A DNA stretch of 64,000 nt. Origin: Phlegmacium glaucopus (Eukaryota > Basidiomycota > Agaricomycetes > Agaricales > Cortinariaceae). This document shows positions 6,039-46,392 of this stretch, in pieces (position 1 is the stretch's first letter; the number at the start of each line of letters is the position of its first letter). The stretch covers positions 1-64,000 of the forward strand of contig MU130013.1 of assembly GCA_015039465.1 (NCBI GenBank). The letters run 5' to 3'. The notes under the pieces are model-generated. The model saw only the letters and a program-made list of their open reading frames with translations, searched no databases and was not told where the DNA came from. Both the position numbers and the translations under genes were made by a program.

Positions 6039-6220
6039 CGTTTTCCGCTGTGTTTACAAAATGTAATCTTTGTACAAATCCGGCAAATACGTGATAAATT
6101 ACCCGTTTAGCCTCTGCATTCCTCCCGCCATCATCCCATTTTAGCACCCATAAAAGCTTCAGAAAAAGTTCAACAGCGAGTTCAATGCACTTTTGAACCT
6201 CCCATAATTTGGAGAATCAG

Positions 6221-7909
6221 ATGGCATTGCAGGAAAATGAAGCGAAAATCGCACGATCTCCCTTTCATAGTAATCCCGACATTCTGGACGAGATCTGTGA
6301 ATACCTCCACGATGGACAGGATACGGAGCTGGACTCTGAAGCAGCCCGTACAAGCAGACGGAACCTCTTATGCGTCGCTTTGACCTGCAAAGCCTTCCTC
6401 GAACCGGCCTTGGATCGTCGATGGAGGTCATTGGATTCGCTTTTCCCTCTGCTTAGAATCTTGCCATCATTCACGCAAAGCGATGGGACCTATGTAAGTC
6501 TTTTTTGGCTTCCTGCATCCAGGCATACTTCTCAGAGTTCATGTTATCACAAGGTCTTGAGAGGAAATGTTGCTGATGAAGATTGGGAGCGATTCGATTA
6601 CTATGCTCGAAGGCTGCGAAAATTTTGTTATACTCGAGATCCGGAGAATCTGGACATTGCTATGCATGTTTACTTTCGCCTCGCTCAACTACGTCCAACC
6701 CCTTTGTTGCGTTCCCTTCGCCATTTGCACTGTCCATTCATGAGTCAGAGTGACTTCCTCATCTCTGGAATCTGTCTCTTCCTTTCCCCCTCTCTCCAGA
6801 GTCTCCAGCTTGAAAACATATCCAATGTTGAAGATAAACTTTGCGGGACCGTGCTTCACGCGTTGGGGTCCGACGGGGCGCAGATTGAGAAGATCGTACT
6901 TCGTGGGAATGGTTTATCAATGGACACGGTGTGGAAGGCAGTCAGGTTCGAACATCTCAACCTGTTGGAGCTGTCAGGGATGGGGAAGGCTATCAGCCTT
7001 GAGATTATGGAAAAAATAGGGTCACTTCCTTGGCTCGTCAATTTGGTCATTGATTTCACGGAATCACCGATGGCACCGTTAACACAGGACATTGGTTTGA
7101 AAGATCTTAAGAGTTTGATTATCACAGCTCCTGTCCCATTCATTGAAGCTCTTTTATCTCACATCGCTACGACTCAATTGGAAACCTTCGTCGCTGCTAT
7201 GCCCTCCAATCCTCCAGCTGACAAAAAGGAGTTCTTGACCAAGGTTGTAGATCGCTGGGGCCCAACGCTCCGTCGCATTGAGTTGGTGCACCAACAACTG
7301 GACGAAGCCGCCGCTGTTGAACATTTGCAAATAGATGCCCTCTCGCCGCTTGTCCCTCTTCGAAAATTGACGTGCCTCAGATTGGAGGGATATACGATGG
7401 AATTGACCGATGAAGACGTCTCTGATATTGCCGTCGCCTGGCCGGAGATGGATACACTGGTACTTCCCTTCGTCAGTGTAGATCATCCCTGCCCAACGGT
7501 TTTATCGCTACGCATCTTTGCTCGGCTATGTCCAAGTTTACGATATCTTACGGTACCGCTTAATACAGAGGAGTTCCAACCTTTCGTTTCCACTGGTGTC
7601 CCGCACATACCTGCACACGACTTGCATACGCTGACTATCTCCAGCGCTGATGACCCTTGGGATCTAAGAGACATGCTTCATATTGCACGGCATATCGACT
7701 ATCTTTTCCCGAGATTGAAGTCATTGTTTCTGTATGACCGACATGGCCGGTCACGGTGGATGCAGGTGCATGATATGATACAGATGTACCAGGCAGTACG
7801 GCAGGAGGCTATTGCATTTGAACGGGCGAGCATGGGGTCTAGTACTGTTTGGAATATGTCAACAGGTTTAATTGATCGTCATTCTACAATACACAGTTCA
7901 CCGTCATAA
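6221..7909 (+). CDS. F-box/LRR-like protein
   Basis: Exons 6221-6493 and 6554-7909, 542 aa. The 60 bp intron has GTAAGT at the donor and CACAAG at the acceptor; it is a multiple of three without stops, so retention would add 20 residues in frame. Its position is conserved in the damaged paralogue at 888-2669. The N-terminal F-box-like motif reads NPDILDEICEYL, then RRNLLCVALTCKAFLEPALD. The rest has irregular leucine-rich blocks (SPSLQSLQLENIS, RKLTCLRLEGY, CPSLRYLTVPL), as in the large agaricomycete F-box family. Such proteins are thought to be substrate adaptors of SCF ubiquitin ligases. ATG 6221 is the first methionine before the F-box. The substrate is unknown. Confidence 0.8.
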   Translation: MALQENEAKIARSPFHSNPDILDEICEYLHDGQDTELDSEAARTSRRNLLCVALTCKAFLEPALDRRWRSLDSLFPLLRILPSFTQSDGTYVSLFWLPASRHTSQSSCYHKVLRGNVADEDWERFDYYARRLRKFCYTRDPENLDIAMHVYFRLAQLRPTPLLRSLRHLHCPFMSQSDFLISGICLFLSPSLQSLQLENISNVEDKLCGTVLHALGSDGAQIEKIVLRGNGLSMDTVWKAVRFEHLNLLELSGMGKAISLEIMEKIGSLPWLVNLVIDFTESPMAPLTQDIGLKDLKSLIITAPVPFIEALLSHIATTQLETFVAAMPSNPPADKKEFLTKVVDRWGPTLRRIELVHQQLDEAAAVEHLQIDALSPLVPLRKLTCLRLEGYTMELTDEDVSDIAVAWPEMDTLVLPFVSVDHPCPTVLSLRIFARLCPSLRYLTVPLNTEEFQPFVSTGVPHIPAHDLHTLTISSADDPWDLRDMLHIARHIDYLFPRLKSLFLYDRHGRSRWMQVHDMIQMYQAVRQEAIAFERASMGSSTVWNMSTGLIDRHSTIHSSPS

Positions 7910-11300: not shown

Positions 11301-14300
11301 CTTGGTGGATCCCAACTCCATGTTTGACGTATATCGGTAGGATGAAACGTATGGACGTTCGTCAGGCCTGGCGTGAAAAACTGGCTCTCAATATGCTCAT
11401 CTGGTTCATTTGTGCATGTGCCGTCTTCGTCATCGCTGTGTTGGGAATTCTCATCTGCCCTACGGAACATGTGTTCAATACTTCCGAGCTGGCGTCACAT
11501 TCTTCTACGTTGAGCCCAAATAACGTGTATACTTCAATACGGGGTGAAGTCTTTGATCTGACAGCGGTTGCTGCGACGCATGAACGTGTGGTTGGCGTTG
11601 TTCCTGGTAAATCAATATTGAAGTATGGTGGTCAATCGGCAGATAGCATCTTCCCAGTTCAGGTATGACAGGAATATGACAGGAATTGTCAAGGAACTGA
11701 TGTATCTTTGGTTGTAGGTCAGCGCTCTGTGCAACGGTGTTACTGGCTCCGTCAGCCCCTATGTCAGCCTGGATTCAAAGAACAACACTGATGTCAACGC
11801 CCAATACCATGACTTCCGTGCTTTCACCAACGATTCACGTCCGGATTGGTACTTTGAGCAGATGGTTGTGATGCGATATACTGCTCGTCGTGGGTTTGTT
11901 GGCTACACCCCTAAGGAAGTCCGGAATATGGCGAACACTGGCCGTTCTGTGGCTATCTACAACGGACTCATTTATGATATGACAACATACCTCTCGAGCC
12001 CTCCAGCTATCAAGTCTCCTCAGGGCACTGTTGCACCCTCGGGCATAGACGTGGATTTCATGGATAGCAGCGTCTTAGATTTATTCAAGTTCAATGCTGG
12101 CCAGGATATCACGAAGAAGCTCAATTCGCTCAGAATCGACAGCAATGTTCTTGCCTCGCAGAAAACTTGCTTGCGAAACTTGTTCACCATCGGCAAGGTA
12201 GACAATCGTCAGTCACCCCAGTGTCTTTTCGCGAACGATATCCTCTTGGTACTCTCTGTTATCATGGTCGCCATTATTGGTTTCAAATTTTTGGCCTCGA
12301 TTAACTTTGCTGCGGCTCGTGCCCCGGAAGATCACGATAAATTCGTAATTTGTCAAGTCCCTTGTTATACCGAAGGTGATGTTTCGCTTCGCAAGACTAT
12401 CGACTCTTTGGCTCAGATGAAGTACGATGATAAACGCAAGTTGTTGGTGGTCATCTGTGACGGTATGATCGTTGGATCTGGGAATGATCGTCCCACGCCG
12501 CGTATTGTGCTCGATATCCTTGGTGCAGACCCCAACCTTGATCCCGAACCTCTCAGCTTCATGTCTCTTGGCGAAGGTGCTAAACAACACAATATGGGCA
12601 AGGTTTACTCAGGATTATACGAATGCGCTGGTCATGTTGTGCCGTATCTCGTCATCGTCAAGGTCGGAAAGCCAACTGAGCGCTCGCGTCCGGGAAATCG
12701 TGGTAAACGAGACTCGCAGATGATGCTTATGCACTTCCTTAACAAGGTTCGTATTTTCCTGTCTCTGGCTCCGTTTTCCGTTCTTAAACCTCTTCTCTTC
12801 TGTTAGGTTCACTTCAATTCACCAATGAACCCGTTAGAACTAGAAATGTATCATCAAATCAAGAACGTTATTGGAGTCAACCCTTCCTTCTACGAGTACT
12901 TGTTCATGGTGGATGCTGATACAACTGTTGATCCTTTATCGGTAAATCGTCTGATTTCAGCGTATGTCTATTTTATTTTTTAGCCTTGACCATTCATTTG
13001 ACTGAAATGACACGACAGCATGATCCACGACAAGAAGCTGCTAGGTGTTTGTGGAGAAACAGAGTTGGCTAATGCTAAACAGTCATTGATTACGATGATG
13101 CAGGTAATGCCTAAGTTTTATTTAAATGGCATATCGTTAAATCGTTGGGTTTAGGTATACGAATATTTCATCTCTCACCACATGGCGAAGGCTTTCGAAA
13201 GTCTTTTCGGGTCCGTTACCTGTCTCCCCGGTTGTTTCACTCTTTACAGGTTGCGAACACCTGATACGCACAAACCTCTACTGATCTCGAATCAAATGAT
13301 AACCGACTACTCTGAAAATCGGGTAGACACGCTACATATGAAGAACCTGCTCCATCTTGGTGAAGATCGATACCTGACGACTCTCCTTTTAAAACACTTC
13401 CCACTTTACAAGACTCAATTTGTCCGAGATGCGCATGCGTACACCGTGGCACCAGATGATTGGAAGGTTCTATTATCCCAGCGTCGACGTTGGATCAACT
13501 CTACGGTTCACAATCTGGGTGAACTCGTTTTCTTGGAGCAGCTTTGTGGATTCTGCTGTTTCTCGATGCGTTTCATAGTTATGATTGATCTCTTGTCAAC
13601 GCTCACTCAACCTGTTACAGTTGCCTACGTAAGTTATTTCTTGTTTCACTCCACACACAGACTGATCATTTTGTCACCATTTTTAGATTGTATATCTGCT
13701 CTATCTCGTCATCGGACAAGGCAAATCTATCCCTACGCTATCACTAATCATGATTGCGGCCATTTATGGTGTTCAAGCTTTGGTCTTCATTATGAGACGG
13801 AAGTGGGATATGATTGGATGGATGCTCTTCTACATCCTCGCAATCCCTGCCTTCTCATTCTTCCTGCCACTCTACTCATTCTGGAGAATGGACGACTTCT
13901 CATGGGGACAGACTCGTGTGGTCCTTGGAGAGTCCGGGAAGAAGATGATTGTCCATGTAAGTGTTGCGTTAGTCAGCTGCAGTGATTGGACTGAGATGTT
14001 TTTTTCAGGATGAAGGAAAATTCGATCCCCGCTCTATACCTCTCAAGTCTTGGAATGATTATGTCAGTTTTTTTTTGTATATCACCTTTTATAACAATCT
14101 AAATGCATTCATTTAGGAAAACGAGCTCTGGGATAAAGAATCTAATCATAGCATTGGATCATGGGTACCTCCAGCGAAGATCAAAAACGAGGGATATGCA
14201 GAGTCACGGACGGCATCTCTATACGGCCGCGAGACGTACTATGAACCAAGAAGTTTCTCACCAGCGCCTTCTCAACGCGGAGTGTACCCTCCTCCTGGAT

Positions 14301-24320: not shown

Positions 24321-26091
24321 GTAAATATAATGACAACTGCGGCAGTTCTGCGTTGCAAAAAAGAAAAAGAAAAAGACCATCATTCAAACCAAAAAAGTAC
24401 ATACAAGTGTGTGGAACCACTACGTTTTGCATTATTCAGTTAATCTGGTAGACGACAAGCCCTAAAAATTCAACTTACCTAGATAATCATACTGTAACCA
24501 TGGTTCAAACTCCTCGTCTTAGGTTTCCACAACCCAGTATCCGACATCATGAGACAACTGATAGCGTCCGGTGATAGTTCTTCGTTCGTCAACTGAAAAA
24601 GATAATAGACGGTCAAGGTGGGAGCTCATTTGAGGTCTTGATCGATAACTAAAACTTTTACTAGTAGTAAAACAAAAGGTATACTCACATGGAGCATTCG
24701 AGATAAAAACGAATAAATCGATCTCGCCCGCTTCTGGTCGCGGCTTCGAGTAGCTTCGAGTCCAGAGAAAAATCCTGTGTGATTTTTGTGTCCTACTAGC
24801 TCATAATTAAGGAGCTTCGATTTTGACCACCGTGCTGATCGGTCATCCCCAGTCAAAATCGGACCTAGTGTGAGCGAGGAGGAGTGAGACAAATCGATTA
24901 TATTAGCCGATATCGACTAGTGCAAGATAATTGATGCCATCACGCCATCATCAGACCAGGCTGAGTACTGCTTATTAATTTATTTCCTTAGCCTCTCTCA
25001 AAATGTGCCTCCAGTTGATTATTCTTAAAACTCTTTATTATTATTATAAGTAATACAGGATATGATATATACAGTATACAGTACAATAATTCCTCTACCA
25101 ATAGAATAGGAAGTGATGAAACTGAATCCATAATTAGTGCTATGTGGAAGGATGAATACATCTGACCATATAACCCTCTCGAATTATTACGCATCACTAG
25201 GTTGGCTAATGTTGGAGCCTTCCATATGTTGTAATCCATTGTGGGGCCGAAGAGTCGCCAGTCGAAGTGGTAGTCGCCAGTCGGAGGGGTAGTAGTTGCC
25301 AGTCGAAGGGGGAGTTGCCAGCCGAAGGGGTCATTTCTGTCGTCTCGGGAGTTCCTGAGCAGCCTGTTGTAGAACATAGAAATGGTTTGTGAATTACCTA
25401 AATGCCTGTTGATAGATGTTCGCTGTCTTCGAGTGAGAAGATATTTATGTGTATGTAAACTTGTGAAATTGGGCAACAACGTAACGTACATAACAACTGT
25501 ACTACAACTGCGTTCGATCTATCTCACTAGAACTCTTATTATCGTCTTGCCTTGTTCATTCTCGGCTACTTTAAGGTCCAATTTTGACTGGGGGTCATCC
25601 TCTAACGTTGTTCAGTGACTTTGTTCCGTGGTAAGTAGGATAAAGAGAAAGATACAGAAACAAAGGTCACAATCACTGATAGACGGTCCAAACGGGACGC
25701 CAAATGATTTGGCGGGGACTTGGCGCTTCGCGCCACCAACGATAATATTCTCCAACCAGCTAGGGTTCGTAACGAAACATGTATCATACTATGTAATGAC
25801 ATAGTGAGCGAGAAAGAAGGACAGCAAACGGCATTGTGTCAACTTGAGTAGTATTAGTAACGAGCGGAGATTACCGATCACGTGTTTGCGAAGGCCAATA
25901 GAATCCCAGAGGTAGGGCTCAATCAAGTCCATTTCAATTTTCGAACCGTCTGCATATTCCATGTCATTGTCAAACAAAGTATAGACCCATTGAATAACGT
26001 ACTGAAGTAATTAATTCCCCCATTATCCCACACACTTTTCTGTGTTCATATATAAGGGGTGGTGCAAGAAATTCGGTCAGTACTCCATCTC
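24321..26091. other. Intergenic repeat-like DNA before P450 copy A
   Basis: No convincing gene. A cluster of four 19-nt repeats lies at 25253-25331. The AT-rich stretch 24990-25100 resembles retroelement end sequence, but no second terminal copy was found. The last part should include the promoter of P450 copy A: a block AAATTCGGTCAG just before the start is shared with copies B and C. Confidence 0.4.
25253..25331. repeat. Four copies of a 19-nt tandem repeat
   Basis: The unit is approximately AGTCGCCAGTCGAAGGGGT, at 25253-25271, 25272-25290, 25294-25312 and 25313-25331. Copies 2 and 3 are separated by AGT, and the copies differ by a few substitutions. This is a small minisatellite outside any gene I can support. 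Confidence 0.8.
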
Positions 26092-27255
26092 ATGGATCCC
26101 ACTGTCAGGTATATCTCTTGCTTACCTCTAGTTGTTCTAGGGTACTGGCTGTGGAGGCTTGGTCGACGAGAGCGTCATTTGCCGCCTGGACCACCAACCA
26201 AACCAATTATCGGAAATGTCCACCTGCTTCCAAAGGCATTTCTACAACTACAGTCAGTAAAATAGACATAGACAATTGAAATCGTGAGCATGCTCATATA
26301 CCTCCTTAGATTTTCAGCATGGGCAAGAGAATATGGGCCCGTCTTTTCGGTGATTCTGTTTCCTCAGGAAGTCTACCCACTTCGTTGACTCTAGTATGAT
26401 TTAATAGATCAAGGTTTTCAATAGCACCATGATCGTACTCTCAAGTGCTTCTGCCGTCAAAGACATACTGGATAAAGCTGGTTCCTTGACCGCAGGTCGC
26501 CCTCGTTCACTTATGCAAGCCACCATGGACAATCTTTACATGTCCATGGAAAGTGCGAGTGGGTTAACCCGTGCCATTCCTTCATAGACGATGGTAGTCT
26601 GAGCTTTATTCATAGATACGGGTGTCTGGCGCCGTGGCCGAAAGGCTTTACAGATGTTCCTCACAGCAGAGGCAATTGATAGGCATTTGCCTACTCAAGA
26701 AGCTGAATCTATTCAACTCCTACACGATCTCCTCACATCCCCCGAGGTGTGCTCTAATTGTCTTGACTTTTCCACGTTTTGACACTGGACATTGATAGGA
26801 ACTCTACACCCATATCGTACGCACCACAGCGTCCCTGATCGCATCGCTTGTGTATGGGAAACGCTTCCCAGTTTTTAAAGGTACCCAAGCAGAGGTATAT
26901 GCCCACGCAGTTAAATTGGCGAATGAAATCAGCGACGCAGCCAGATTTCCTCCTGTTGAGATCGTGCCGTGGATCCAATACATTCCCCGCTGGTTGGCTC
27001 CGGTAAGGCCTTTCATCATCCACCTACCATCAGAATAGCTGATGATACAATCCTTTCAGTGGACGGCTCATTGTGACCTTATGAGGTTGGTCCGCAATCG
27101 CCTCTACGAATCACTTTTGGATGAGTGCGATCAAGCAATCAAAATGGGACGCGGTACGGGATGTTACATGGAGGAGGTTCTGAACCGCCAGGCAGAGTTG
27201 GGCTTATCACGAGGAGATATCGTGTCCGTCTACTGACTTCCTACATCCTGCCAAG

Positions 27256-27406
27256 TGTAATCCTAGGATTACAATTACTTAGTCATCACTTATATATATG
27301 ATCGATAACTACTCTCTCTCTCTCTCTCTTTTTCCCCTCTCATCTTGTACCCTCGTATTCCTTCTCTTAGTCTTTCAAAATATACTGCAATTCTCGTTTC
27401 CTTCTT
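27256..27406 (+). repeat. 5' LTR, first 151 bp (normal orientation)
   Basis: It begins TGTAATCC at a TG and contains a CT microsatellite. Its last 58 bp are repeated at 32977-33035. Its first part reappears reversed, not complemented, at 30390-30483 with only the CT run differing in length. Confidence 0.88.
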
Positions 27407-29605
27407 ATATCGGCATTACATTAAACCTCCGCGTTACCTGAGTAGCCCAACCGCAGAGCCATCGGTAAAAAGAAATTGGCAAACTTGGTTAAGAAAATTC
27501 CGGAGTCGGAACTCAACAAATAATTAAGATTCAACAACAAATTCACCATCAAATCGAAAACCAAAGCCTGCCTATTAAAGTCCTACATCATTCAATATTA
27601 AGCAGAAGAACAGTTACGTTCGGGCAAGAAATACTAGTGTTTGCTAACTTAAATAAAGTTCCTTTCCTTCGGGTTTTTATTATCCGTATGTTTCCAACCC
27701 ACGTTATTATCGTTTTTGTCAAGCTCTGCAGGTAACAGGTAGATGTCTCCACTGCGCCTCAAATTGTTTACACCTGTTCCTTTAGAGAAAAAATGTCCTT
27801 CACCTATAGCGTTGCAGTTGTTAAAGCCCCAACCCTTCACACATCTATGCTTCCGGTTCAAAATACTGTTCAAGTCCCGCTTACTCTTGGTACACCCGTG
27901 GTAACAGCTACTCCCTTCGTCTAAAGTTCCCTTTAAGTTGACGCCCTGGTAGTTAGTATGTCACGGTATGTATTACGAACCTAAACTTCACTCCTGCATG
28001 CCTTTATAGTGGTAGGCTCTTCGACCTCAACGGTTAGTGTCTTCATGATAAATCCAACGGTTTATTCCTTCGTTGCTTCAACCACAACCGTAGGAGCTCC
28101 AGTCAACTATCACAAAGGGGTCTTCACAAACGTAGACACTAACTACGCTGCCCTACTCTTCTTCTTCTCCCCCTTCAAAATCATAAGGATCATGCAACTC
28201 GGGCTGCTTGCAGTAGGTACCATTCACGGAATATTAACAACCGTCCTCCCTTCAGCGTTCCTACTGGACCAAAATGCTTGTGGAAGGCTGTGAAAAATGT
28301 CGGCAGTATAAACAACTAATTGAGAGCAAGTAGAAGTCACTCGAATCCCGTCTTCGCTCTACTTCTGCTTCTCCTACTTCTCCACCTTCTAACCCTTGCC
28401 AAGACTCCTCCTGCTAAGAGAAACCTCCTTAATTACACCCCTGCAAAACGCAACGCCTTTTGTAGGAGGCGCTACAGTGCAACAGCGAACCGTCTGTCAA
28501 AAGCAAAAAGTAGTGTTTCGCACTCCCACATCTTGTAAAGAGCTTCTCACCATCACCTCTTACGCAACCGAAGTGCTGGTTCCTATGCCTCGAGAAGTAG
28601 TTGTAATCGAAGCTAAACAAGAGCTTCGGCGACAAGCGACTCCACACTTAAACATAATGCTTCACACGTTAACTCACGCTCATCCCGTAAACGGGTGCAT
28701 GACTTCTCAAACATTCCTAGCTCGGATCTTAATTCCTAAACTGGTGCTTAAAACAGAAGGGTCAGTGCTCCCTCTTTAAGTCTTGCCTCAAGACACTACT
28801 TAAGCCTTTTTCTCTCACGACTATCCGCTCGCGCTACACTACGTTAGGTTAGGGCCTGCTCACCCAGGACCTTCGTACCCTCCTACGCCTAGTGGAAAAA
28901 CAGTAGTCCATCTCCCCAAAAGCGTAAGCGTTTTTTTAGGACCGTTTTGACAAGCTTCAGTATATACTATGCCCCACTATTTAAAGGTCCCCTCTGTTGC
29001 CCCCCAACCAACTTCTGTTCTACAAGTTGTCTGCGTTCTCTCCTTCCATTAACTCTGTAACAGCCAAATGCTTCCTACTATTTATCTAGACTAAGCAGAC
29101 TACTGGTCCATCTCCTTCCCCTTCTGCCTCCCCATAAAAAAACACCTACATACGCACCACTATACAAGCCTCATCCTCGTCACCATTGATAAACGCAACA
29201 ACCCCTCCGACTCACCCTTAAGCTCTCTCTTCATACCTCCTCTCCACATTCGCCTCTTAGACTAACTACATCCCCTTACTGTCACCCTCCCCCGCAACAT
29301 CGTGCTACACGTGCTCGGGATCATCTAGAGCCACGGTCGGACTTCCCGAACCTTCCTTTAATATTGGTGGCTTTGCTGCTACCTAAACGTTCAAATTCCC
29401 AAGTGTGCACACCTCTCGGAACTTCACTTTCAATACTTTCTCGCTCTAGCACTTTTCCAGCAACATCTGGATTCGTTTAGCGTTATTCAGCTCTACTCAC
29501 TGATATACGCCAAATATTCGTAAGTTGTTTGTCACATTTTTCTATGGACGATTCCCAGCAAAGTTTTTTCACCTTCCACCAAACAAGGTGGATGTGATTC
29601 TCGGC
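27407..29605. other. Mirror-reversed block (left of gap): LTR end, Gag and protease of the retrotransposon
   Basis: Read from 29605 down to 27407 without complementing, the first 35 bases equal the LTR 3' end at 33036-33070 exactly. Further in, the same mirrored reading opens a frame with Gag-like text such as YDFEQFCQDFF and KVIRILPCFQDPLVRDW. Nearer 27700 it gives a retropepsin C-terminal block (PIIFGLPFLEINSIV, then a CIDKK block). Read normally on either strand, the block has only weak, unrelated ORFs. Any gene called here in the stored orientation is an artefact. Confidence 0.9.
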
Positions 29606-30389
29606 NNNNNNNNNNNNNNNNNNNNNNNNNNNNNNNNNNNNNNNNNNNNNNNNNNNNNNNNNNNNNNNNNNNNNNNNNNNNNNNNNNNNNNNNNNNNNNN
29701 NNNNNNNNNNNNNNNNNNNNNNNNNNNNNNNNNNNNNNNNNNNNNNNNNNNNNNNNNNNNNNNNNNNNNNNNNNNNNNNNNNNNNNNNNNNNNNNNNNNN
29801 NNNNNNNNNNNNNNNNNNNNNNNNNNNNNNNNNNNNNNNNNNNNNNNNNNNNNNNNNNNNNNNNNNNNNNNNNNNNNNNNNNNNNNNNNNNNNNNNNNNN
29901 NNNNNNNNNNNNNNNNNNNNNNNNNNNNNNNNNNNNNNNNNNNNNNNNNNNNNNNNNNNNNNNNNNNNNNNNNNNNNNNNNNNNNNNNNNNNNNNNNNNN
30001 NNNNNNNNNNNNNNNNNNNNNNNNNNNNNNNNNNNNNNNNNNNNNNNNNNNNNNNNNNNNNNNNNNNNNNNNNNNNNNNNNNNNNNNNNNNNNNNNNNNN
30101 NNNNNNNNNNNNNNNNNNNNNNNNNNNNNNNNNNNNNNNNNNNNNNNNNNNNNNNNNNNNNNNNNNNNNNNNNNNNNNNNNNNNNNNNNNNNNNNNNNNN
30201 NNNNNNNNNNNNNNNNNNNNNNNNNNNNNNNNNNNNNNNNNNNNNNNNNNNNNNNNNNNNNNNNNNNNNNNNNNNNNNNNNNNNNNNNNNNNNNNNNNNN
30301 NNNNNNNNNNNNNNNNNNNNNNNNNNNNNNNNNNNNNNNNNNNNNNNNNNNNNNNNNNNNNNNNNNNNNNNNNNNNNNNNNNNNNNNNN
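29606..30389. other. Assembly gap (784 Ns)
   Basis: A run of Ns. It sits exactly between the two mirror-reversed blocks. The sequence truly missing from the retrotransposon appears to be the catalytic part of reverse transcriptase. Long ORFs spanning this run are meaningless. Confidence 0.99.
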
Positions 30390-32976
30390 GTTCTACTCTC
30401 CCCTTTTTCTCTCTCTCTCTCTCTCTCATCAATAGCTAGTATATATATTCACTACTGATTCATTAACATTAGGATCCTAATGTGAGAGGGGGTGAAATTT
30501 TTAAAACATACCTTTCTTCCTCTCTTTCCACGTTCATTATGGTACATGCCAAGCATCTCTCTTTCTATTTCCTCTTAACTTGTCTTATACATTAACACTT
30601 TCCCTCAATTATTTCTTCTTCATTAATTTCCACAAAACTCCTCTAGGTAAACAGGTTTCGAAGCGTCAGAAGTTCGAGGAAAACACCCTCGGTGTGCAGC
30701 AGGAGCCCTGGAACCGGCTAGGTAGAGTGTTCTATAAAGGTTGGAGGTGCCGGTGCATCGAAGAAGAGCAGCTATTAAAACAGCTGTTTCATAAGCTCCA
30801 GCAACAAGTGTTCCTGACCAAGCCCCCTCACGTCACGTGCCCTCCCTTTTTCCCGCAGTAACAAGAGCTACTTCCCATCATGAAGACTCTACACCTTTTG
30901 TCCTTTCTAAGCCACTCTTACTCCCTACAACTCCCACTGGCATCTTACAAGTCCCAGTTAGAAGCACTAGAACATTCCTGGTAGCATCGCTCCGTACTTA
31001 AAATGCTGTGCAAAAACCAGAGATCTAAACATAAGGGCAGAAGCTACATTGCAACATTCTGCTTGTGCGACTGGCTGAAGCTTTCCCTTAAATAGATTTG
31101 CCCTAAACAATCGAACAACTCGAACTCTCTAAAATCGGAATTATTCTAATAGAACTCGAAGGGTGTATAGTACGACCTAGGAAAGCTGCTATCGAAAGCG
31201 GGACGCAAGCCGACCATCCCACAGTCCTAATCTTCCACCGTTCTATCCTCCCTCCTCAGCTCCCGCTGCTGGTTTCGCTTCAACCTTCCCCCTTTTCGGA
31301 CACCTAAACAACTACCATAAGTACTATAATTTAGCATGTGCACCTTCTCGAGCATGGGTCGGGACGACCAACGCAAGCTGTACCTTAGACTACCGGACTT
31401 ACTGTCAAAATAAACACGCGAGCGACCTCGGTAGCCAGAGTCCCACCATTCTCCACCTGTAAAACTCAAACTATGGTCAGTTAAATACCTCCCGAAAGGT
31501 TTTAACGCTCTATTTCTCAAACAGTGCCAGTCTTTATTATAGATCTCCCTCTGGTAAAAGTGTTTTGGTAAACAGTTTCTTGTCAAGTCGTTCCACAAGA
31601 CGCCACTCCACATATCATCATCCCTACTAAACTTACAGACTAGGTTCTGCCAGGCACTTTCACTGTTACGTCAGCACCAGTGGCAGGAAACCGTTGCCGG
31701 GTTACTTTAGCTATCGCTGTCTTAGTGTCGCAACCAGTCCCTGTCCATTTCCCACATCTCCCGGGTATCCAAATGAACACCTCCTAAACAATGCAACTGT
31801 TAGCCCCGTTCTCCCTTACATCTTCAACAGGTAAAGCAACGCGTACAATCCGGTCATTATACTCAAGGCATTATAAAGTATACTGAACACGCGTGGTTTT
31901 ACTGGGTTCCTTAGCACCCGGTTAACCTTTTCCTCAAGAGCCTGTACTCCATCTGCACCATAATGTTCTGCTACTGGTTACTTGGTTTTGGGTAGTGCTA
32001 CTCAATATAAAAAGTACGGTCCGTAGCGTCGAACGTCCCTGAAACACTTGCCTAGGCGACGTATCAATAAAAATTAAAGTCGTTAGTTTACAACCAGCAC
32101 TCGTTCGCTCTCTTGTCATCCTCCTCCTCATTGGAGTCCTTCACTTCTTCGCCTCTCGCAACACCGTTATTTTTATCCCAAACATTCTACCAGCCTGCAC
32201 AACTCCTACCAGCGCTAAAAGGGTAATCGCATGTGTAGAACTTTTTGTCCTAAACGGTCTCTCAGTCGAAGAAACCTTCATAAGCACTTCACCTGGTCAC
32301 CACTCCCATATGCGCTATCCCGTAGTCGTTGTGTTAAGACAAGCGGAAATTGCATCTGTTAAAAAGGTAGTATAACACTGTATTTAAGGTAGGTCGCGCG
32401 AACTGCTGCTCTTTCCAGAAAAACTACGTACTTTAAGAGGTCACAAAACACTAGACACATTTACCACTTTCCATGTGGTTAGTTTAGTCGTGCGGTCGCA
32501 AATTCGCGTGCTTATTATCGTTCATTGAGAAAAAGTACGTGACCTATCAAATCGAGTCGTAAGAATTTTCAGTAACTTAGTTTCCGTTGGCCCGCTCGAT
32601 TAAGGGTTCTTCACGGTTTACTTTCATGCCGTGGTCTCGCCTCCAGTGATCGCAGCCACCACTCTATTTAAAATACAAGTCCGTAAAATCACTCTAGTTA
32701 TCAACAGTTTGTAAGTGCTCTTCAATGTTAAACAAATTAACTTAGTTTACGAAAAACCACTTGTCTCAAGGTACATCCTTTTAAGAACAGCGTTAGCAAC
32801 ATACATTCGAAACAATTCTGTTCTCATACTAGACGGTCAAAACCCTCCTTCCATCGTTATATAGCTTGCTCTGGTTCTTTAGGGGCCTGGAGACAACGCC
32901 TAAATCCCTACCCGGTCAGTTCCTGTGCAACTTGAAATCACAATAGTCGAAGATACGGGGCTGATCTTTATACTAA
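30390..32976. other. Mirror-reversed block (right of gap): RT end, integrase, PPT and LTR start
   Basis: Read from 32976 down to 30390 without complementing, it starts near the end of reverse transcriptase (VQRVLDWPIPKSATEVRGFL). Near 31680-31570 it reaches an integrase core (DCIVTFTDRLG, HLTAEHLAELFFDKW). It then gives a purine-rich tract (AAAGTGGGGGAGAG) directly before TGTAATCC, the LTR start, at 30483. The final base at 30390 joins without gap to the LTR continuation at 32977. This gives the block an exact right boundary. Confidence 0.9.
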
Positions 32977-33070
32977 TACCCTCGTATTCCTTCTCTTAGT
33001 CTTTCAAAATATACTGCAATTCTCGTTTCCTTCTTCGGCTCTTAGTGTAGGTGGAACAAACCACCTTCCA
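32977..33070 (+). repeat. 3' LTR, last 94 bp (normal orientation)
   Basis: Positions 32977-33035 match the 5' LTR at about 27349-27406. Positions 33036-33070 match the mirrored sequence at 29605-29571. It ends TTCCA, followed by CCAAC. Confidence 0.86.
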
Positions 33071-33244
33071 CCAACACTAATACCCAATCATTCAACCTCT
33101 AGGTTTCTTGGTGCAAGCCTTATGGATGCAGGGGCAGAAACATCAGCTTCTTTCCTACAGGGTTTTGTGCTCGCTCTCCTGTCATACCCAGAATGCCAAC
33201 AACGCATCCAAACCGAGATCGATACAGTCATAGGTTCCGGTCGT

Positions 33245-34140
33245 TAGTGATGTTAAGGCTCGGCTCGGCCTGGAAGCCTCGGCTTAGGCCCGGCTTTCAA
33301 GGGCTTGGGCTCAAGGAAAAGTCAAGCCCAAGCCGCAGGCCGAATCCCTACTCGGCTTAGGCTCGGCCTGGGCTCAGGCCCCGGCTTTCTCTGTGTAAAT
33401 GCATTAATGTGCAGGACATATATTTTTCATGATTTATTCATTGTTTTCGTTGCTTAGCTTGATCTTCTTTTGACACAATTATTATATTTATTGAATGTAT
33501 GTAAGATAGAGTAAGATACATGTAAAAGAGTTCCCCCTATCACCATTGTTTACCGTCATCATGGGCTGTTATTATAGCGTCATTGTCGTGTGATGTGTCG
33601 ACATGGTGAATGTGACGACGTGGGTCTAGGGACATGACAAGTGATGTGGAGGTGGTGGTGGTGGTAGCGGTGGTGGTGGTGGTTGCGTGGTTGTGGTGAT
33701 GGACTCCAGCCATGGTCGTGGTGTGGATCCGGTGGTGGTCTTAGTGGTGGAGGTGTAGGGCAGTCGTCATTATGTACTGTGGTTGCTCATAGTTAGTTAA
33801 ATAGAATTTAATCAAAAAAGAAAAAAGGAAAAAAAAATATCCTTACTTTGCATCGTCATTGGCGTCGTGTTCGACGTGGTGAGGGGTCATAGGTTGACGT
33901 CGGTGACTTGTGACATGCGATGGTTGTTGTCACACATTATTTGTTGTATTTTTATCAATAAATTGTCCCGGGCCCTGCGAGAACACCAAGCCGAGGCCTG
34001 AGCTGCGGCTCACGGCTTGAAAATATTGAAGCCCAAGCCGTGGGCCGTCCAAGCCCTACGCAACGGCCTGTGACGGCTTGGGCTACCGCGGCTCGGCTCG
34101 GCTCGGCTTGAGGGCTCAGGCCGAGCCTTTAACATCACTA
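33245..34140. mobile_element. Non-autonomous hAT-like element (896 bp) in an exon of P450 copy A
   Basis: Terminal inverted repeats start TAGTGATGTTAA(A)GGCTCGGC at both ends. An exact 8-bp target duplication, CCGGTCGT, lies at 33237-33244 and 34141-34148. The undisturbed site is visible in P450 copies B and C. The 8-bp duplication and a TIR starting TAGTGATG are hAT superfamily features. Subterminal regions carry many GGCTCGG/GGCTTGGGC repeats, and the centre has a GGT/GTG-rich microsatellite (about 33648-33735). No transposase is encoded. Confidence 0.92.
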
Positions 34141-35070
34141 CCGGTCGTATGCCGAATTTGGCAGACTATGAGACATTGCCATACTTGCAAGCTTTCGTCA
34201 ACGAGGTAAGTTATAATTTTCAACTTTTTACCACTTGGAAACAATCTGCTGAATAGATCCATCGTTTCAGACCTCTCCTGCCCCTTGCCTTGCCACATAT
34301 GGCGACTGAAGATATCCCTGTACGTTAGCAGTGACCCCTTTTCCGGGAGTTGGCATTAATCCTCTGTCGTAGTACAAGGGCCATGTCATCCCAAAGGGCT
34401 CTATGCTCTTTATGAATACGTGTATGTAAACAGTCCTTGCCGGTCCGTTGACAGTAATTTAACACACACGGCAGGGAGTATCACGCATGACCCTGGTCAG
34501 TTAAGATAAATGGGAATTTTACCCCGATGTTAACTGATAGTTTCCCTAGACCTTTTTGAAAACCCAGAGACATTCCGACCGGAGCGTTTCCTCGAATCTA
34601 GATTTGGGACCAAACCTGGGGCGGAAGTTACGGATTTCCGAGACAACTTTGGGTTTGGGGCGGGCAGAGTGAATTTCTATTCTTTTAGTAGAAATATATG
34701 TTCTGACTGACGCCCTGCTTAGCGGATTTGCCCTGGTGAAAGGATGGGCCGCCGCACAACTGTAAGCAGTCGAATAAGTTGTATTCTTCCAAGTCACTAA
34801 TCAAAAAATTTTGCAGGCTTTAAATGCTATGAATCTTGTATGGGCATTTGAGTTTAGTCCTTTGAACGCAAGCGAGCCCTTTGACTTGGCGATGAACCGG
34901 TATCTCGAGGTAATTATGTCCCATACCATGTCGGTATTTTTTTTTAATAACTTTTTGGGCCCCTTTAGCCTGGACTGGAGCTGGCACCCAAGCCATTTGT
35001 TTGTGATGTGAAAGTACGAGATGACAAGCGGGCTGCGATGATCAGGTCTTCGTTTTCTGCGTATCAGTAA

Positions 35071-36433
35071 ATAACAGGGAGCTCGCTTACTAATACTAGT
35101 ATGCTTTTCGATCTTAACAAGATGTCTGTAAATTTAGATGTTATATAGTATTGAGGTAGTCGTCACAGCTTGGTTCCGAGTCGTGACCTTGGGACACAAT
35201 TTTTGGCCTAAAATGTAGTTAAGTACGACTCCATACGAGCACTGCGGGGAAGGAGTCTTTGAATAATCAGTGGCAGTCACTCACATCTTTTGACCATCGT
35301 CTCAGAGCTCTAGAGCTCGTCTGAGTACACCATACCATTACACATCACGTTCACTTATAATTCCAAAATAATATATTTCATTTCCGTTCAGCGGCCAGCC
35401 AAATCGTTTCACCCAGTGTAATATAGCAGAAACCAAATCAACCGTGCTCCTAGTCTTCCGTACGGCGTAGGCAGACTTCATAAACTACTGATAATCAATT
35501 GATGAGTCGATCTCCTTCATATGCCATGAGTCTGCTCGTCAAAGATGTATATTCCCACGAGGACGCGTGTTGTTTGGGAATTCAATGGCGTCTTCAAATC
35601 CATCCCACAACGAAACACCCCAATATGTATCTAAAACACCTTTAATACTAGAAACCTTTTCGGGCACAGCATCGACATTTTCTACTACCTGGCAACAAAT
35701 ATATACCCCGACACTACCCCTATGGCACAACAGCGGCTCAAGCGCTCAAGCGCTCACGCCCATCACACTCGTTTCATCGACTCCAGCAACCCTTCAAATA
35801 CAATCACCACCCTGAAAAAACGGACCGAAAAACGCTCGAATGACGATGACCAAAACCCAGATACCCCGGCCCCTCAGAAGCTGCTGGTTCCATTGGACAC
35901 GTCAGACTAGAACCATTGGATGGATAACGCGTCTACGATAAGAGAGAAAGTGATCGGTTCGCTTTTAGTACGGTTTGGTGGCCGCGAGTAAGTATGTATA
36001 TGATTGGGACCGAACATTGTGTCAAGTTCACGACATGCTTTGTATAATACTATATCCACATCCACATTCACTGATGACTCCGAGTGCAGTGCAAATGCTC
36101 AGACATCCTGTATATTAACAGCAGCTGCATGGTTAGCTTCGTGGGACTCATTGCACTGCACTCCACTACCCATGCCTATCTATAGGGACGCTATTACAGA
36201 AAAAATGCCTCCCATCCAGGTGTACCCTCTGCTGCATCTGCTACTCAGCTTTCTGAAAAGACTAAGGGTTGTCGGCCATAAAATTTGCAAACTTTGCATT
36301 CGACAAGTGGCATTCCTACGATCTTTTTCCCGGAACTGCTTATCCCTGTTCATTCGCCGTTTTCGCACTTGAACCAAACGTCAAAGTCTAGATGTGGATC
36401 GTTTTAGCAGACTCCCTATATCGTTTCTAACAA
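35071..36433. other. Intergenic region with part of a dispersed inverted duplication
   Basis: No gene is supported. Positions 35160-35330 resemble the 3' flanks of P450 copies B and C. Positions 35466-35900 are similar, in inverse orientation, to about 47060-47532, including GAGTCGATCTCCTTCATATG at 35503-35522. Small ORFs on this stretch (for example at 35722) share words with the other copy (NPDTPA), which reflects common origin rather than proven coding. Confidence 0.5.
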
Positions 36434-38124: not shown

Positions 38125-38586
38125 TAGCCTGAGCGCGCTTTCTCCAAAACTTTCGTAGGTTGATTAATATTATCACCACTCGGTTCCGTAAATGTAACTC
38201 CAAGAAACAATACGTCCAAGAATGTGCGCTAATTATGCTTGGAGCTTAGAATCGTCGAGTCCGGATGGCTCGACGATCACTTCTTTTATAACTCTTTCTT
38301 GGTGTATACGAACTTGCAATTACTACTACTAATTGCTTAGTCGGAGTCGAAATTTGAAGTTGACTGGATATCGGACAATGAAGCGGAGATAACAGGCCAT
38401 GTAATGCTCGGCTTGCACGCGGAGTTCGGTACAAGCCGCCTTCTCTGCCGGTAATTGCAAACAAAGCCTGATCCGCTTCGAGGGGCGGAGCAAGGGCGCT
38501 AGCCTATCGATAAGGAAACGGCTATTACTCCTCAGTGTAAGTTTATAACGTATGGTACGAGAAATTCGGTCAGTGTTCTTCATACC
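38125..38586. other. Upstream region of P450 copy B
   Basis: No gene is recognised. The last 40 bp, including GAGAAATTCGGTCAGT, are shared with the upstream regions of P450 copies A and C. Confidence 0.45.
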
Positions 38587-40818
38587 ATGGATCCCATCCG
38601 GTATATCTCTTGCTTACCTCTAGCTGTTCTAGGGTACTGGCTGTGGGGGCTTGGGCGGCGAGAGCGTCATTTGCCACCTGGACCACCAACCAAACCAATT
38701 ATCGGAAATATCCACCTGCTTCCAAAGTCACTTCTACAACTACAGTCAGTAAAATGGACAATTGGAATCGTGAGCATCCTCATATACTTCCCTAGATTTG
38801 CAGCATGGGCGAGACAATACGGGTCTGTCTTTTCGGTGATTCTGCTTCCTCAGGAGGTCTACCCACTCTGTTGATTGTAGTATGGTTTAGGTCAAGATTT
38901 TCAATAGCACCATGATCGTACTCTCAAGTCCTTCTGCAGTCAAAGACATACTGGATAAAGCCGGTTCCTTGACGGCAGGTCGCCCTCGTTCACTGATGCA
39001 AGTCACTACGGACGGTCTTCACATGGTCTTGGAAAGTGCGAGTGAGTTAACCCGTGCTATTCTTTGATAGACGATGTAGTCTGAGGTTTATTCGTAGATA
39101 CGGGTGTCTGGCGACGCGCCCGAAAGGCTTTACAGACGCTCCTCACAGCAGAGGCAGTTGATAGGCATTTGCCTACTCAAGAAGCTGAATCTATTCAACT
39201 CCTACACGATCTCCTCACATCACCCGAGGTGTGCTCTAATTGTCTTGACTTTGTACACGTTTTGACACGTTGGCAGGAACTATACGCCCATATCATACGC
39301 ACCACAGTGTCCCTGATCGCATCGCTTCTGTATGGAAAACGTTTCCCGGTTTTTAAAGGTACCGAAGCAGAGGTATATGCCCACGCAGTTAAATTGGCGA
39401 ATGAAGTCAGCGACGCGGCCAGATTTCCTCCTGTTGAGATCGTGCCGTGGATCCAATACATTCCCCGTTGGTTGGCTCCGGTAAGGCCTTTCATCCGCGC
39501 ATCATCAGAGTAGTTGATGATACAATCCTTTCAGTGGACGGCTCACTGTGACCACATGAAGTTGGTGCGCAATCGCCTCTACGACTCACTTTTGGACGAG
39601 TGTGATCAAGCAATCAAAATGGGACGCGGTACGGGATGTCATATTGAGAAGGTGCTCGACCGCCAGGAAGAACTGGGTTTATCACGAAGAGATATCTCGT
39701 CCGCGTACTGACTTCCTACATCTTGCCAAAACTAATATCCGATCATTCAACCTCCAGGTTCCTTGGTGCAAGCCTTATGGATGCAGGGGCAGAAACATCA
39801 GCTTCTTTCCTACAGGGTTTTGTGCTTGCTCTCTTGTCATACCCAGAATGCCAACAACGCATCCAAACCGAGATCGATACAATCATAGGTTCCGGTCGTA
39901 TGCCGAATTTGACAGACTATGAGACATTGCCATACTTGCAAGCTTTCGTCAACGAGGTAAGTTATAATCTTCAATTTTTTTACCACTTGGAAACAATATG
40001 CCGAATAGATCCATCGTTTCAGGCCTCTCATGCCCCTCGCTTTGCCACATATGGCGACTGAAGATATCCCTGTACGTTAGCTGACCATTTTTCCTGGAAG
40101 AGGCGATGTTAATCCTCCTTCGTAGTACATGGGCCATGTCATCCCAAAGGGCTCTATGCTCTTTATGAATACGTGTATGTAAACAGCCCTTTCCGGTCCG
40201 TTAACATTGATTTAACGCAAATCACAGGGGGTATCATGCATGATCCTGGTCCGTTAAGATAAACGGACATTTTACCTCGGTGTTAAACTAATAGTTTCCC
40301 TAGATCTTTTTGAAGAACCAGAGACCTTCCGGCCCGAACGTTTCCTCGAGTCTAGATTTGGGACCAAACCTGGGGCGGAAATTATGGATTTCCGAGACAA
40401 CTTTGGGTTTGGGGCGGGCAGGGTGAATTTCTATTATTTTAGTAGAAATACATTTTGGACTGATGTCCTGTTTAGCGGATTTGCCCTGGTGAAAGGATGG
40501 GCCGCCGCACAACTGTAAGCAGTCGAGTAAGTTAGATTCTTATAAGTGACTAATCAAAGATTTCAGGCTTTGAATGCTATGAATCTTGTATGGGCATTTG
40601 AGTTTAGTCCTTTGAACGCAAGTGAGCCCTTTGACTTGGCGATGAACCGGTATTTCGAGGTAATGACCTTCCATACCCATGTCGGTATCTTTTTTTAATA
40701 ACTTTTGGCCTTGTAGCCTGGAATAGAGCTGGCACCCAAGCCATTTGTTTGTGATGTGAAAGTACGAGATGACAAGCGGGCTGCGATGATCAGGTCTTCG
40801 TTTTCTGCGCATCAGTAA
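38587..40818 (+). CDS. Cytochrome P450 monooxygenase, copy B (intact)
   Basis: Fourteen exons: 38587-38726, 38796-38856, 38897-39041, 39098-39228, 39277-39480, 39535-39698, 39758-39956, 40009-40071, 40126-40174, 40228-40248, 40304-40422, 40476-40514, 40567-40659 and 40717-40818. Phases agree; 509 aa. Features in order: a short N-terminal membrane anchor (YISCLPLAVLGYWLWGL), the proline-rich hinge HLPPGPPTKPIIGN, the I-helix region AGAETSASF, ExxR (NEIHR), FRPERF, and the haem loop FGFGAGRRICPG with the cysteine ligand. It is an ER-anchored haem-thiolate monooxygenase of unknown substrate. Exon 10 is only 21 nt. The first donor (GT at 38727) was chosen because it joins GNIHLLPK to FAAWARQYG in frame. 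I cannot assign a CYP family number. Confidence 0.9.
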
Positions 40819-41481
40819 GAATAACATGGAATTCGCGAAAATTAAGTATGCTTTTCGGTCTTAACAAGATTTTTCCATCGTAATAAGATGAGTGTAAATT
40901 CATACGTTGTAGTATTGAGTCTGCTCAGACAATTTTCGAGGTGAAATAGTCGATTCGTGACCTTTGAACACAAATTCGGGCCTAAATCGTAGCGAGGTAC
41001 GAGCACAAGGGAGGTCCCGCGCTCACATCTTTCTGCCATTGTCTCAGAGCTCTGGAGCCCGTCTGAATGGATACCGAACAGACTAGTACATAAGTTATTA
41101 TTTAATGAGGATGCGTCGGATTTGGAAACCATTGAGCTCATGTTCGTTTCACAACTTTGGGGTCACATGTTGGACCAAACACACCTGTCGCGTCAATGGA
41201 AGATTTCAGGAGTCATCGCCTATCCAATATCCACACACTGGCTTGATGACACCTCCAAGAATGAGGTGTTTCGTTTCTCCCCACCTTCTGGAATTGCTCT
41301 ATGTCGAAATCTCACCAAAGATCGCCTCCCATACGACCCACATGATTATTCAAAGTTCTGTAAAACTTGAAGCTGTAGTGAAACTCTTGGGAATCGGATG
41401 GGATTGATGTGTCGTCGTTCTCATAGCGTGCGGCTGCCATATCTACAAGTCTGGTGCATTCTGCGTCTGAAATCTATGTGA
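40819..41481. other. 3' flank of P450 copy B
   Basis: Positions 40830-41080 match, in inverse orientation, the 3' flank of copy C (about 43790-44040), so the duplication extends past the stop codon. No gene is recognised. Confidence 0.55.
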
Positions 41482-42718: not shown

Positions 42719-44051
42719 GACTTCGTGTCTGTTGTAATGACCTACTGCGTCTCTGACCCTTGCTTTATATAAGAGTCTAGCATCTATATCAAATACAGTC
42801 AGTGAGATAAAGCTTGAAGTTCGTGATGATCTTAACAAATTGTTGCTGTCATAATCAGAATCAGATTTTCGGTCAGTAGGAATGTGTTAACACTAACTAG
42901 TTTGAGGCAGAAAATGGTTATGCAACTTGTTACCTTGGGTAACCGAGTTTTTTTAAGGTAAGTCTAGCCTCTACTAGTAGCTTCCTTCATTGAAATCTGT
43001 CACCAAAAAGATGATCATAGTGATTATCTATCAAACTTATGATGTATTCATCAACTTACCTCTATTTAATAGATTCAAACACTGACAAACCCAGGGTAGG
43101 TTTGAAATGTCGCTTTTCTAATGATTAACACACCGAGAGTCAACACTGCCATCTCCACCTCATCTCATCAATATTCGGCGGAAGATGAACAGATTTTGGA
43201 GAAGATGAAATAACGTTGTTATCTATTGTTGCTTTCAGTTGGGCTGATCTTCCCACGCGTCGGTATATGGTAAGAGTCATTTTGTATCTCGATTATGGTG
43301 TGCTTGTTGAGAACATATCGGATGAATCGCGTTGACAAGCACCATAGGCATGGCGGTACCAGATATCAATATATCACGTACCATCCTGGGAGTGTCCTTG
43401 AAGAAAGTGGGAAACGACTCTGCTCAATGGAAGATTTCGTTTCGTCAGTGTTGTACTTTTTATTCTCGCGTAATATACTGTTTTCATGAGATATAGAGAA
43501 GGCTTGATAAATAAACTGGCTGAACGAAAATTTTAACTCCTTGAGTAGCATCAACACCTCATCCATTCTTCGTTCCCAATGGTTGAGATTTTTGTTTCTG
43601 CAACTTCATGTCTGACGCATTTGGGTTGTCCATTTTCACTGATCACAGTAGCTTTCCTCTGGCGAGAATCGGATATGGGGTTTGCTGCGGAATTGTGGGG
43701 TGATAATGTGGTGGGTGTTATGGAGAAGGCAAAGTGCTGCTTTCTCCGTGAAATTTAATTTGGAATGTAAGTGAGTGTGATGAAACTAGCTGTAATGATG
43801 TACTCAGACGAGCTCCAGAGCTCTGAGACAATGGCAGAAAGATGTGAGCGCGGGACCTCCCTTGTGCTCGAACCTCGCTACGATTTAGGCCGGAATTTGT
43901 GTTCAAAGGTCACGAATCGACTACCTCAGCTCGAAAATTGTCTGAGCAGACTCAATACTGCAACGTCTGAATTTACAGTCATCTTATTACGATGGAAAAA
44001 TCTTGTTAAGACCGAAAAGCATACTTAATTTTCGCGAACTCCATGTTATTT
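42719..44051. other. Intergenic region with a flanking inverted repeat
   Basis: It contains one arm (43046-43245) of the inverted repeat that brackets P450 copy C, and the copy C 3' flank (43790-44050). Otherwise no gene is recognised. Confidence 0.5.
43046..43245. repeat. Arm 1 of the inverted repeat bracketing P450 copy C
   Basis: It is similar along its length to the reverse complement of 46393-46578. Both contain AATATTCGGCGGAAGATGAA and TTGTTATCTATTGTTGCTTT in the same order. A few small indels separate the arms. Confidence 0.85.
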
Positions 44052-46340
44052 TTAGTGATGCGCAGAAAACGAAGACCTGATCAACGCAGCCCGCTTGTCA
44101 TCTCGTACTTTCACATCACAAACAAATGGCTTGGGTGCCAGCTCTATTCCAGGCTACAAGGCGAAAAGTTATTAAAAAAGATACCAACATGGTATGGGAT
44201 GGTCATTACCTCGAGATACCGGTTCGTCGCCAAGTCAAAGGGCTCGCTTGCGTTCAAAGGACTAAACTCAAATGCCCATACAAGATTCATAGCATTCAAA
44301 GCCTGAAAATGTTTGATTAGTCACATATAAGAATCCAACTTATCGACTGCTTACAGTTGTGCGGCGGCCCATCCTTTCACCAGGGCAAATCCGCTAAGCC
44401 GGACATCAGTTCAAATGTATTTCTACTAAGATAATATAAATTCACCCTACCCGCCCCAAACCCAAAGTTGTCTCGGAAATCCATAACTTCCGCCCCAGGT
44501 TTGGTCCCAAATCTAGACTCGAGGAAACGTTCGGGCCGAAAGGTCTCTGGTTCTTCAAAAAGATCTAGGGAAACTATCCAGTTAACACCGAGGTAAAATG
44601 TCCGTTTATCTTAACAGACCAGGGTCATGCATGATACTCCCTGTGATTTGCGTTAAATCAATGTTAACGGACCGGAAAGGGCTGTTTACATACACGTATT
44701 CATAAAGAGCATAGAGCCCTTTGGGATGACATGGCCCATGTACTACGAAGGAGGATTAACATCGCCTCCGCCAGGAAAAATGGTCAGCTAACGTACAGGG
44801 ATATCTTCAGTCGCCATATGTGGCAAAGCGAGGGGCATGAGAGGCCTGAAACGATGGATCTATTCGGCATATTGTTTCCAAGTGGTAAAAAATTGAAGAT
44901 TATAACTTACCTCGTTGACGAAAGCTTGCAAGTATGGCAATGTCTCATAGTCTGTCAAATTCGGCATACGACCGGAACCTATGATTGTATCGATCTCGGT
45001 TTGGATGCGTTGTTGGCATTCTGGGTATGACAACAGAGAGAGCACAAATGCCTGTAGGAAAGAAGCTGATGTTTCTGCCCCTGCATCCATAAGGCTTGCA
45101 CCAAGGGACCTAGTAGAGAATGAATGGATCAGCTATTAGTTTTGGCAAGATGTAGGAAGTCAGTAGACGGACGAGATATCTCTTCGTGATAAACCCAGCT
45201 CTTCCTGGCGGTCGAGCACCTTCTCAATGTAACATCCCGTACTGCGTCCCATTTTGATTGCTTGATCGCACTGATCCAAAAGTGAGTCGTAGAGGCCATT
45301 GCGCACCAACTTCATGAGGTCACAGTGAGACGTCCACTGAAAGGATTATATCATCAGTTACCTTGTGATGCGTGGATGAAAAGCCTTACCGGAGCCAACC
45401 AACGGGGTATGTATTGGATCCACGGCACGATCTCAACAGGAGGAAATCTGGCTGTGTCGCTGATTTCATTGGCCAATTTAACTGCGTGGGCATATACCTC
45501 TGCTTCGGTACCTTTAAAAACTGGGAAGCGTTTCCCATACACAAGCGATGCGATCAGGGACGCTGTGGTGCGTACGATATGGGTGTATAGTTCCTGCGAA
45601 CGTCCAGCGTCAAAACGTGTACAAAGTCAAGACGATTAAAACACACCTCAGGGGATGTGAGGAGATCGTGTAGGAGTTGAATAGATTCAGCTTCTTGAGT
45701 AGGCAGATGCCTATCAATTGCCTCTGCTGTGAGGAACATCTGTAAAGCCTTTCGGCCACGGCGCCAGATATCCGTACCTATGAATAAGCCTCAGACTACA
45801 CCGTCTATGAAGGAATAACACGGATTAACTCACTCGCACTTTCCATAGGCATGTAAAGATTGTCCATAGTGACTTGCATCAGTGAACGAGGGCGACCTGC
45901 AGTCAAGGAACCAGCTTTATCCAGTATGTCTTTGACTGCAGAAGGACTCGAGAGTACGATCATGGTGCTATTGAAAACCTTGATCTGTTAAACCATACTA
46001 GAGTCAACAAAGTGGGTACACTTCCTGAGGAAACAGAATCACCGAAAAGACGGCCCCATATTCTCTTGCCCATGCTGCAAATCTAGGGAGGTATATGAGG
46101 ATGCTCACAATTTCAATTGTCTATGTCTATTTTACTGACTGTAGTTGTAGAAATGACTTTGGAAGCAGGTGGACATTTCCGATAATTGGTTTGGTTGGTG
46201 GTCCAGGCGGCAAATGACTCTCTCGCCGCCCAAGCCCCCACAGCCAGTACCCTAGAACTGCTAGAGGTAAGCAAGAGATATACCAGATGGGATCCATGGG
46301 ATGAATACTGACCGAATTTCTCGTACCACACGTTATAAAC
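43790..46340 (-). repeat. Inverted duplicate of 38540-41080 (P450 segment)
   Basis: The whole P450 gene, about 40 bp upstream and about 250 bp downstream are shared between 38540-41080 (plus) and this interval (minus). Introns are conserved as well as exons, which points to recent segmental duplication rather than retroposition. Confidence 0.85.
44052..46297 (-). CDS. Cytochrome P450 monooxygenase, copy C (appears intact)
   Basis: It starts at ATG 46297 (MDPIWYISCLPLAVLGYW) and ends with a TAA at 44052-44054. The 14-exon structure of copy B is conserved; I checked donors and acceptors along the gene and found no broken site or frameshift. The hinge HLPPGPPTKPIIGN without its first residues, AGAETSASF, ExxR, FRPERF and the haem loop are all present. 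It differs from copy B by scattered substitutions and ends SAHH instead of SAHQ. It is bracketed by a 190-bp inverted repeat. Function is as for copy B: a membrane-bound monooxygenase of unknown substrate. Confidence 0.86.
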
Positions 46341-46392
46341 TTACACTAAGAAGTAATGGCCGTTTTCTTATCAGGCTAGGTTCGTTCCATGT

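Follow-up and report, generated by a model that had tools for sequence, protein, structure and literature searches.

Chromodomain Ty3/gypsy retrotransposons of fungi are bounded by long terminal repeats (LTRs) and carry a frame in the gag position, RNase H, an integrase zinc-binding domain, a chromodomain, and a purine run in front of the 3ʹ LTR. Automated gap filling and scaffolding make errors at repeats, among them wrong inserts, inversions, and overfilled gaps. An ordinary orientation error leaves a reverse complement and stays visible to homology search, whereas a plain reversal is invisible to it. Here we analyzed a window of 64,000 nucleotides, the start of contig 15 (C15; MU130013.1, positions 1 to 64,000) in the Phlegmacium glaucopus assembly GCA_015039465.1 (60.5 Mb, 259 contigs). 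At 27256-33070 the window holds an ordinary chromodomain Ty3/gypsy element inside a cytochrome P450-like gene. Two blocks of this element, 27407-29605 and 30390-32976, were almost certainly reversed without complementing by an assembly step. As biology, the mirrored blocks are not real; they are an ordinary transposon stored backwards. The parts of the locus are listed below, with comparisons to a reference copy of the element, L063 (C135:18001-27000, 9 kb, without N).

27251..27255, no strand: left target-site copy CCAAG, in the P450-like gene; the paralogues carry the empty site (39726-39729; 45142-45145); identical to the right copy in its first four letters
27256..27406, plus strand: first 151 bases of the 5ʹ LTR in correct order; 94-95% to both L063 LTRs
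27407..29605, no strand: mirrored block 1 (2,199 bases), the letter-reversed, uncomplemented end of the 5ʹ LTR and a gag/protease-like frame of 651 codons; 97.96% to L063 only when reversed, and continuous with 27406 at the seam only when reversed
29606..30389, no strand: assembly gap of 784 N, where L063 has 765 bp
30390..32976, no strand: mirrored block 2 (2,587 bases), holding in reversed letters a 783-codon frame (RNase H, integrase zinc-binding domain, chromodomain), together with a purine run and the 3ʹ LTR up to its base 94; aligns with L063 (98.46%) in the reversed reading alone, and Pfam families are recognized in that reading
32977..33070, plus strand: last 94 bases of the 3ʹ LTR in correct order; 100% to one L063 LTR and 98.9% to the other
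33071..33075, no strand: right target-site copy CCAAC; first four letters shared with the left copy

The gap is the sole N run in the window. When the window was compared with itself, the 59 bases at 27348-27406 were identical to those at 32977-33035 in ordinary order. Each flank thus has a part of the LTR in correct order, and the absent LTR parts sit mirrored beside the gap, which is what the preliminary description had claimed. A BLAST search of the letter-reversed window against itself recovered both parts: 30485..30390 matched 27254..27347 at 97.9% over 96 columns, with one 2-base gap in a CT run and no mismatch (E 6e-41), and 29605..29570 matched 33036..33071 at 36 of 36 bases (E 2e-11). 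The remaining mirror matches listed for the window were self-reversing stretches, or spanned at most 21 bases with an E value of 0.19 or worse. The LTR pieces open to comparison differ by just two bases, both in the CT run, so the insertion looks young, as far as these sequences can tell.

Each block was reversed in place, as had been proposed, and then aligned with L063: block 1 was 97.96% identical (2,207 columns) and block 2 98.46% (2,592 columns); two further copies of the element matched the mirrored blocks at 82.8-85.9%. Altogether, the blocks differ from L063 at 66 mismatched positions and by three indels (9, 6, and 6 bases). L063 contains both seams between flank and block (14 + 14 bases), but only in the form they take once the blocks are reversed. 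In stored order, the blocks had no match to three fetched copies of the element at E <= 1e-5, and in the whole assembly, searched on both strands, each block's sole match was itself. A reverse-complement inversion was rejected, since the stored blocks match nothing but themselves on either strand. Plain complementing in place was also rejected, since the end of the LTR adjoins the gap and not the flank, so that the order itself is reversed.

The longest open frames were 651 and 783 codons in the mirrored reading of blocks 1 and 2, and 128 and 147 codons in the stored order; with 200 dinucleotide shuffles per block, the longest frame reached at most 224 and 243 codons, respectively. The 147-residue frame, the one stored-order frame searched, had no matching protein record among 12 candidates. 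As a homology-free score, used in support only, a fifth-order Markov (6-mer) model was trained on the window outside the blocks, and forward minus mirrored scores were taken in 500-base slices. The score was below zero in all nine slices lying wholly or almost wholly inside the blocks, against 11 of the 115 normal slices from the window and 5 of the 50 from the ordinary copies L063-L065.

Three mirrored pieces were searched against Pfam at E <= 0.001. Mirrored block 2 matched RNase H (PF17917, E 4.6e-32; PF17919, E 4e-24) and, downstream of it, the integrase zinc-binding (H2C2) family PF17921 (E 4.7e-15) and the chromo domain PF00385 (E 2.4e-9); a Tf2-1 SH3 match in the mirrored reading stayed below threshold. 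At this threshold the mirrored block 1 frame matched no Pfam family, and the integrase core model rve (PF00665) was not among the matches of the mirrored pieces. The reverse transcriptase (RT) core was not recognized in either block and presumably falls within the N run. Read mirrored, the order is LTR end, gag/protease-like frame, gap, RNase H, integrase, chromodomain, purine run, LTR start. The earlier claim of Gag, retropepsin, RT-end, and integrase motifs with a polypurine tract was therefore borne out for RNase H, the integrase zinc-binding domain, and the purine run, which stand in retroelement order. Gag and retropepsin are assigned to block 1 from its position and from motifs judged by eye, and at this threshold neither they nor the integrase core had a Pfam match. 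The mirrored integrase piece matched 97 places in the genome (the best 97 of 463 candidates), the best being in C135 at 98%, and some of these places were also matched by rve. The mirroring, the limits of the blocks, the assignment to Ty3/gypsy, and the explanation by gap filling all stood up to testing.

Two paralogues of the interrupted gene, at 38544-39899 and, inverted, at 44968-46337, lack the element and provide the empty site. The paralogue alignments 38544-39729 and 39726-39899 overlap by CCAA, the target-site duplication, of which the fifth letter differs (G/C). In the L063 copy, no target-site duplication was obvious at the ends. Exon-sized frames of the paralogue matched PF00067 (cytochrome P450; E 1.3e-13 and 0.0021); in the broken copy, one of two frames matched it (E 0.0052) and the other was unmatched. 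The segment bearing the P450 gene forms an inverted duplication (38509-41066 / 43804-46372, 93.4% over 2,580 columns), and a third, diverged copy is spread over 26051-35123. A separate insertion of 896 bp lies at 33245-34140 (within 33237-34148), with inverted ends TAGTGATG.../...CATCACTA and an 8-base duplication, CCGGTCGT; presumably it is a hAT-like non-autonomous element. It is absent from both P450 paralogues, so the P450 gene has been broken twice.

The preliminary description also predicted the same fault at other gaps, and it was met again at gap edges in C244 and C181 and in further blocks in C237, C78, C82, C92, and C62. These places were reached through integrase matches or mirrored queries and not by random sampling, so the fractions below are not genome-wide rates. 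Comparison of reversed with forward order covered 67 loci and the window, and also flagged L038 (C244) and L054 (C181), the surroundings of which contain N runs. The C244 gap is mirrored on its left side and normal on its right; the C181 gap is mirrored on its right side. With L031 and L032 (the window itself) excluded and gaps occurring in two loci counted once, 15 edges of 10 gaps comprised four mirrored edges (both in C15, C244 left, and C181 right), nine normal edges (C244 right, both in C126, C148 right, C170, C10, C138, C195, and C226), and two without a call (C181 left, where the last 287 bases were unmatched, and C148 left, unmatched). The first 111 bases at C126 right and the first 27 at C148 right did not match normal loci. 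At least one edge was mirrored in three of the 10 gaps, the window gap included. As not every gap edge is mirrored, the fault is conditional.

In stored order, the 129 bases that lead up to the C244 gap matched five other places (81-83%), and in the mirrored reading they matched at least 40 copies (the best 40 of 132 candidates). Queries with mirrored blocks in stored order led to C237, C78, a short piece of C82, C62, C92, C144, C212, C125, and C150, and direct comparison with normal loci showed C237, C78, C82, C92, and C62 to be mirrored. Sharp junctions between normal and mirrored DNA were found at L074 (C82:79401-80200), L076 (C92:120601-122300), and L077 (C62:750701-752500) without N in the fetched stretch, so mirrored DNA may also lie in fully closed gaps or farther from an N run. 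C144, C150, C125:71194, and C212 appear mirrored from stored-order matches of 88-96% to the C62 block. C189, C243, C228, C18, and C125:417920 may be so, on the weaker ground of stored-order matches to the mirrored repeat piece of C244; the C189 piece lies 107 bases from an N run, and C18 and C189 matched the normal loci compared in neither order. In total, eight mirrored places were read directly (window included) and nine more are suggested by such matches; short matches (C41, C164, C184, and C106; 58-101 bases) and diverged ones (C53, C169, C224, and C105; 70-82%) were not counted as places. An ordinary-order query, L028:1-594, matched at least 40 copies (the best 40 of 75 candidates), and the mirrored query gave three long matches including itself. 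Mirrored storage is a systematic data fault in this assembly.

On both sides of the window gap, the correctly ordered sequence stops inside the LTR, is letter-reversed from there to the N run, and the remainder is N. To our knowledge, no DNA process makes mirror copies, which argues for a fault of assembly. A gap-patching step would have built the flank extensions from reads and mishandled the strand of some of them: a minus-strand consensus complemented without reversal, or a plus-strand one reversed without complementing, would give exactly the stored order. Such a fault would depend on the strand of the read, which fits the finding of some edges right and some wrong. An ordinary element in a P450-like gene, its flanks mirrored by gap patching, is with high confidence the best overall explanation. 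The tool responsible was probably PBJelly, patching an ALLPATHS-LG draft from PacBio reads; that the strand handling of the consensus was the line of logic that failed is put forward with less assurance. In the available text of Miyauchi 2020 (PMC7550596), which names this species as Cortinarius glaucopus, hybrid assemblies started as ALLPATHS-LG drafts that PBJelly then patched from PacBio reads. The PBJelly paper (PMC3504050), in the part available, states that reads extending a flank are incorporated and that, when a gap is only reduced, an appropriate N count is left. The window has this anatomy: it is correct up to the LTRs, 2.2 and 2.6 kb are added, and 784 N are kept, against 765 bp between the corresponding ends in L063.

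Several points weigh against this account. Nine of the 15 gap edges are normal and two are without a call, and a normal edge may also be one that was never extended. In C237, C78, C82, C92, and C62, the fetched 0.8-1.8 kb with the mirrored stretch is free of N, so that a neighboring gap is demonstrated for some places only. The 6-mer score is noisy, its lowest normal slice (-0.053) falling under every block slice, and all tests rest on assembled sequence. In the available text of the 2020 study, patching by PBJelly is stated for the hybrids in general and not for this species by name. Finally, 66 mismatches and only three indels against L063 are cleaner than expected of an early PacBio consensus.

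This last point also favors the idea that the mirroring came from another step of the pipeline, such as a different gap closer, a scaffolder, or a format conversion, the tool having been deduced. PMC8480192, which uses this genome, describes other pipelines for newly sequenced Agaricales in the part available (Velvet, AllPathsLG or Falcon, finisherSC). However, the partial extension of flanks with the N count kept matches the PBJelly paper, and the 2020 study names PBJelly for its hybrids, as far as the available parts of both go. We regard another step as rather doubtful, though a serious contender. A real process of an unrecognized kind that copies DNA with reversed polarity would take the stored order at its word, as the order of the record, and several places carry it. 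Polymerases, recombination, and reverse transcription all preserve strand polarity, however, the window blocks end exactly at the N run, N runs also border the mirrored blocks of C244 and C181, and in-place reversal yields seams present in a normal copy; such a process is very improbable. Chance similarity or mirror-symmetric low complexity, for which the CT run in the LTR and the window stretches matching their own reversal might speak, is refuted, to a negligible residue, by a 98% match along 4.8 kb and by long open frames, both found only on reversal.

Outside this locus, positions 309-634 near the contig start (TGTTGGAAT...ATTCCAACA, judged by eye) may be a solo LTR, and 321-638 matched L040 at 80% in normal order. 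A low 6-mer score had suggested a third mirrored block at 1-1000; it was rejected on this normal-order match, and no mirrored match to 1-3000 was found among the fetched loci. The frame 6209-7909 agrees without mismatch with the full length (542 residues) of a Phlegmacium glaucopus protein; it begins four residues earlier and has 20 residues, lacking in the protein, that look like a retained intron. Strain AT 2004 276, listed for this species, is presumably the one assembled here. Long frames at 8887-13985 matched Myosin_head (8887-10758) and Chitin_synth_2 (11862-12803 and 13182-13982) in Pfam, and to judge from these matches probably belong to a single, intron-containing gene for a myosin-motor chitin synthase. 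Neither Rfam (gathering threshold) nor a tRNA scan gave a hit in the window.

Mirrored DNA has no homology match on either strand and may therefore pass for lineage-specific sequence; it can also raise the number of unique k-mers and conceal transposons and broken genes. Detection is simple, requiring only that the letters beside each N run be reversed and searched again, and other assemblies of the same pipeline are worth testing. That a strand fault in widely used long-read gap patching has put mirrored DNA into many public genomes, unseen by homology checks, is quite conceivable, if short of probable. The literature searched, with few subscription papers covered and code repositories outside its scope, held no description of a mirror-type gap-filling fault, and none of the titles listed from the PBJelly literature on bugs, mirroring, or errors concerned this fault. 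The phrase 'reversed but not complemented' was found only in a legend about control motif matrices, in the text available.

Compared with the fungal chromodomain Ty3/gypsy elements described above, the window element has the same parts and differs only in its storage order, its RT core lying presumably in the gap. Like known misassemblies of gap filling and scaffolding, the fault is an error of an automated gap step at a repeat; whereas the usual orientation misassembly is a reverse complement, the fault in the window is a plain reversal.

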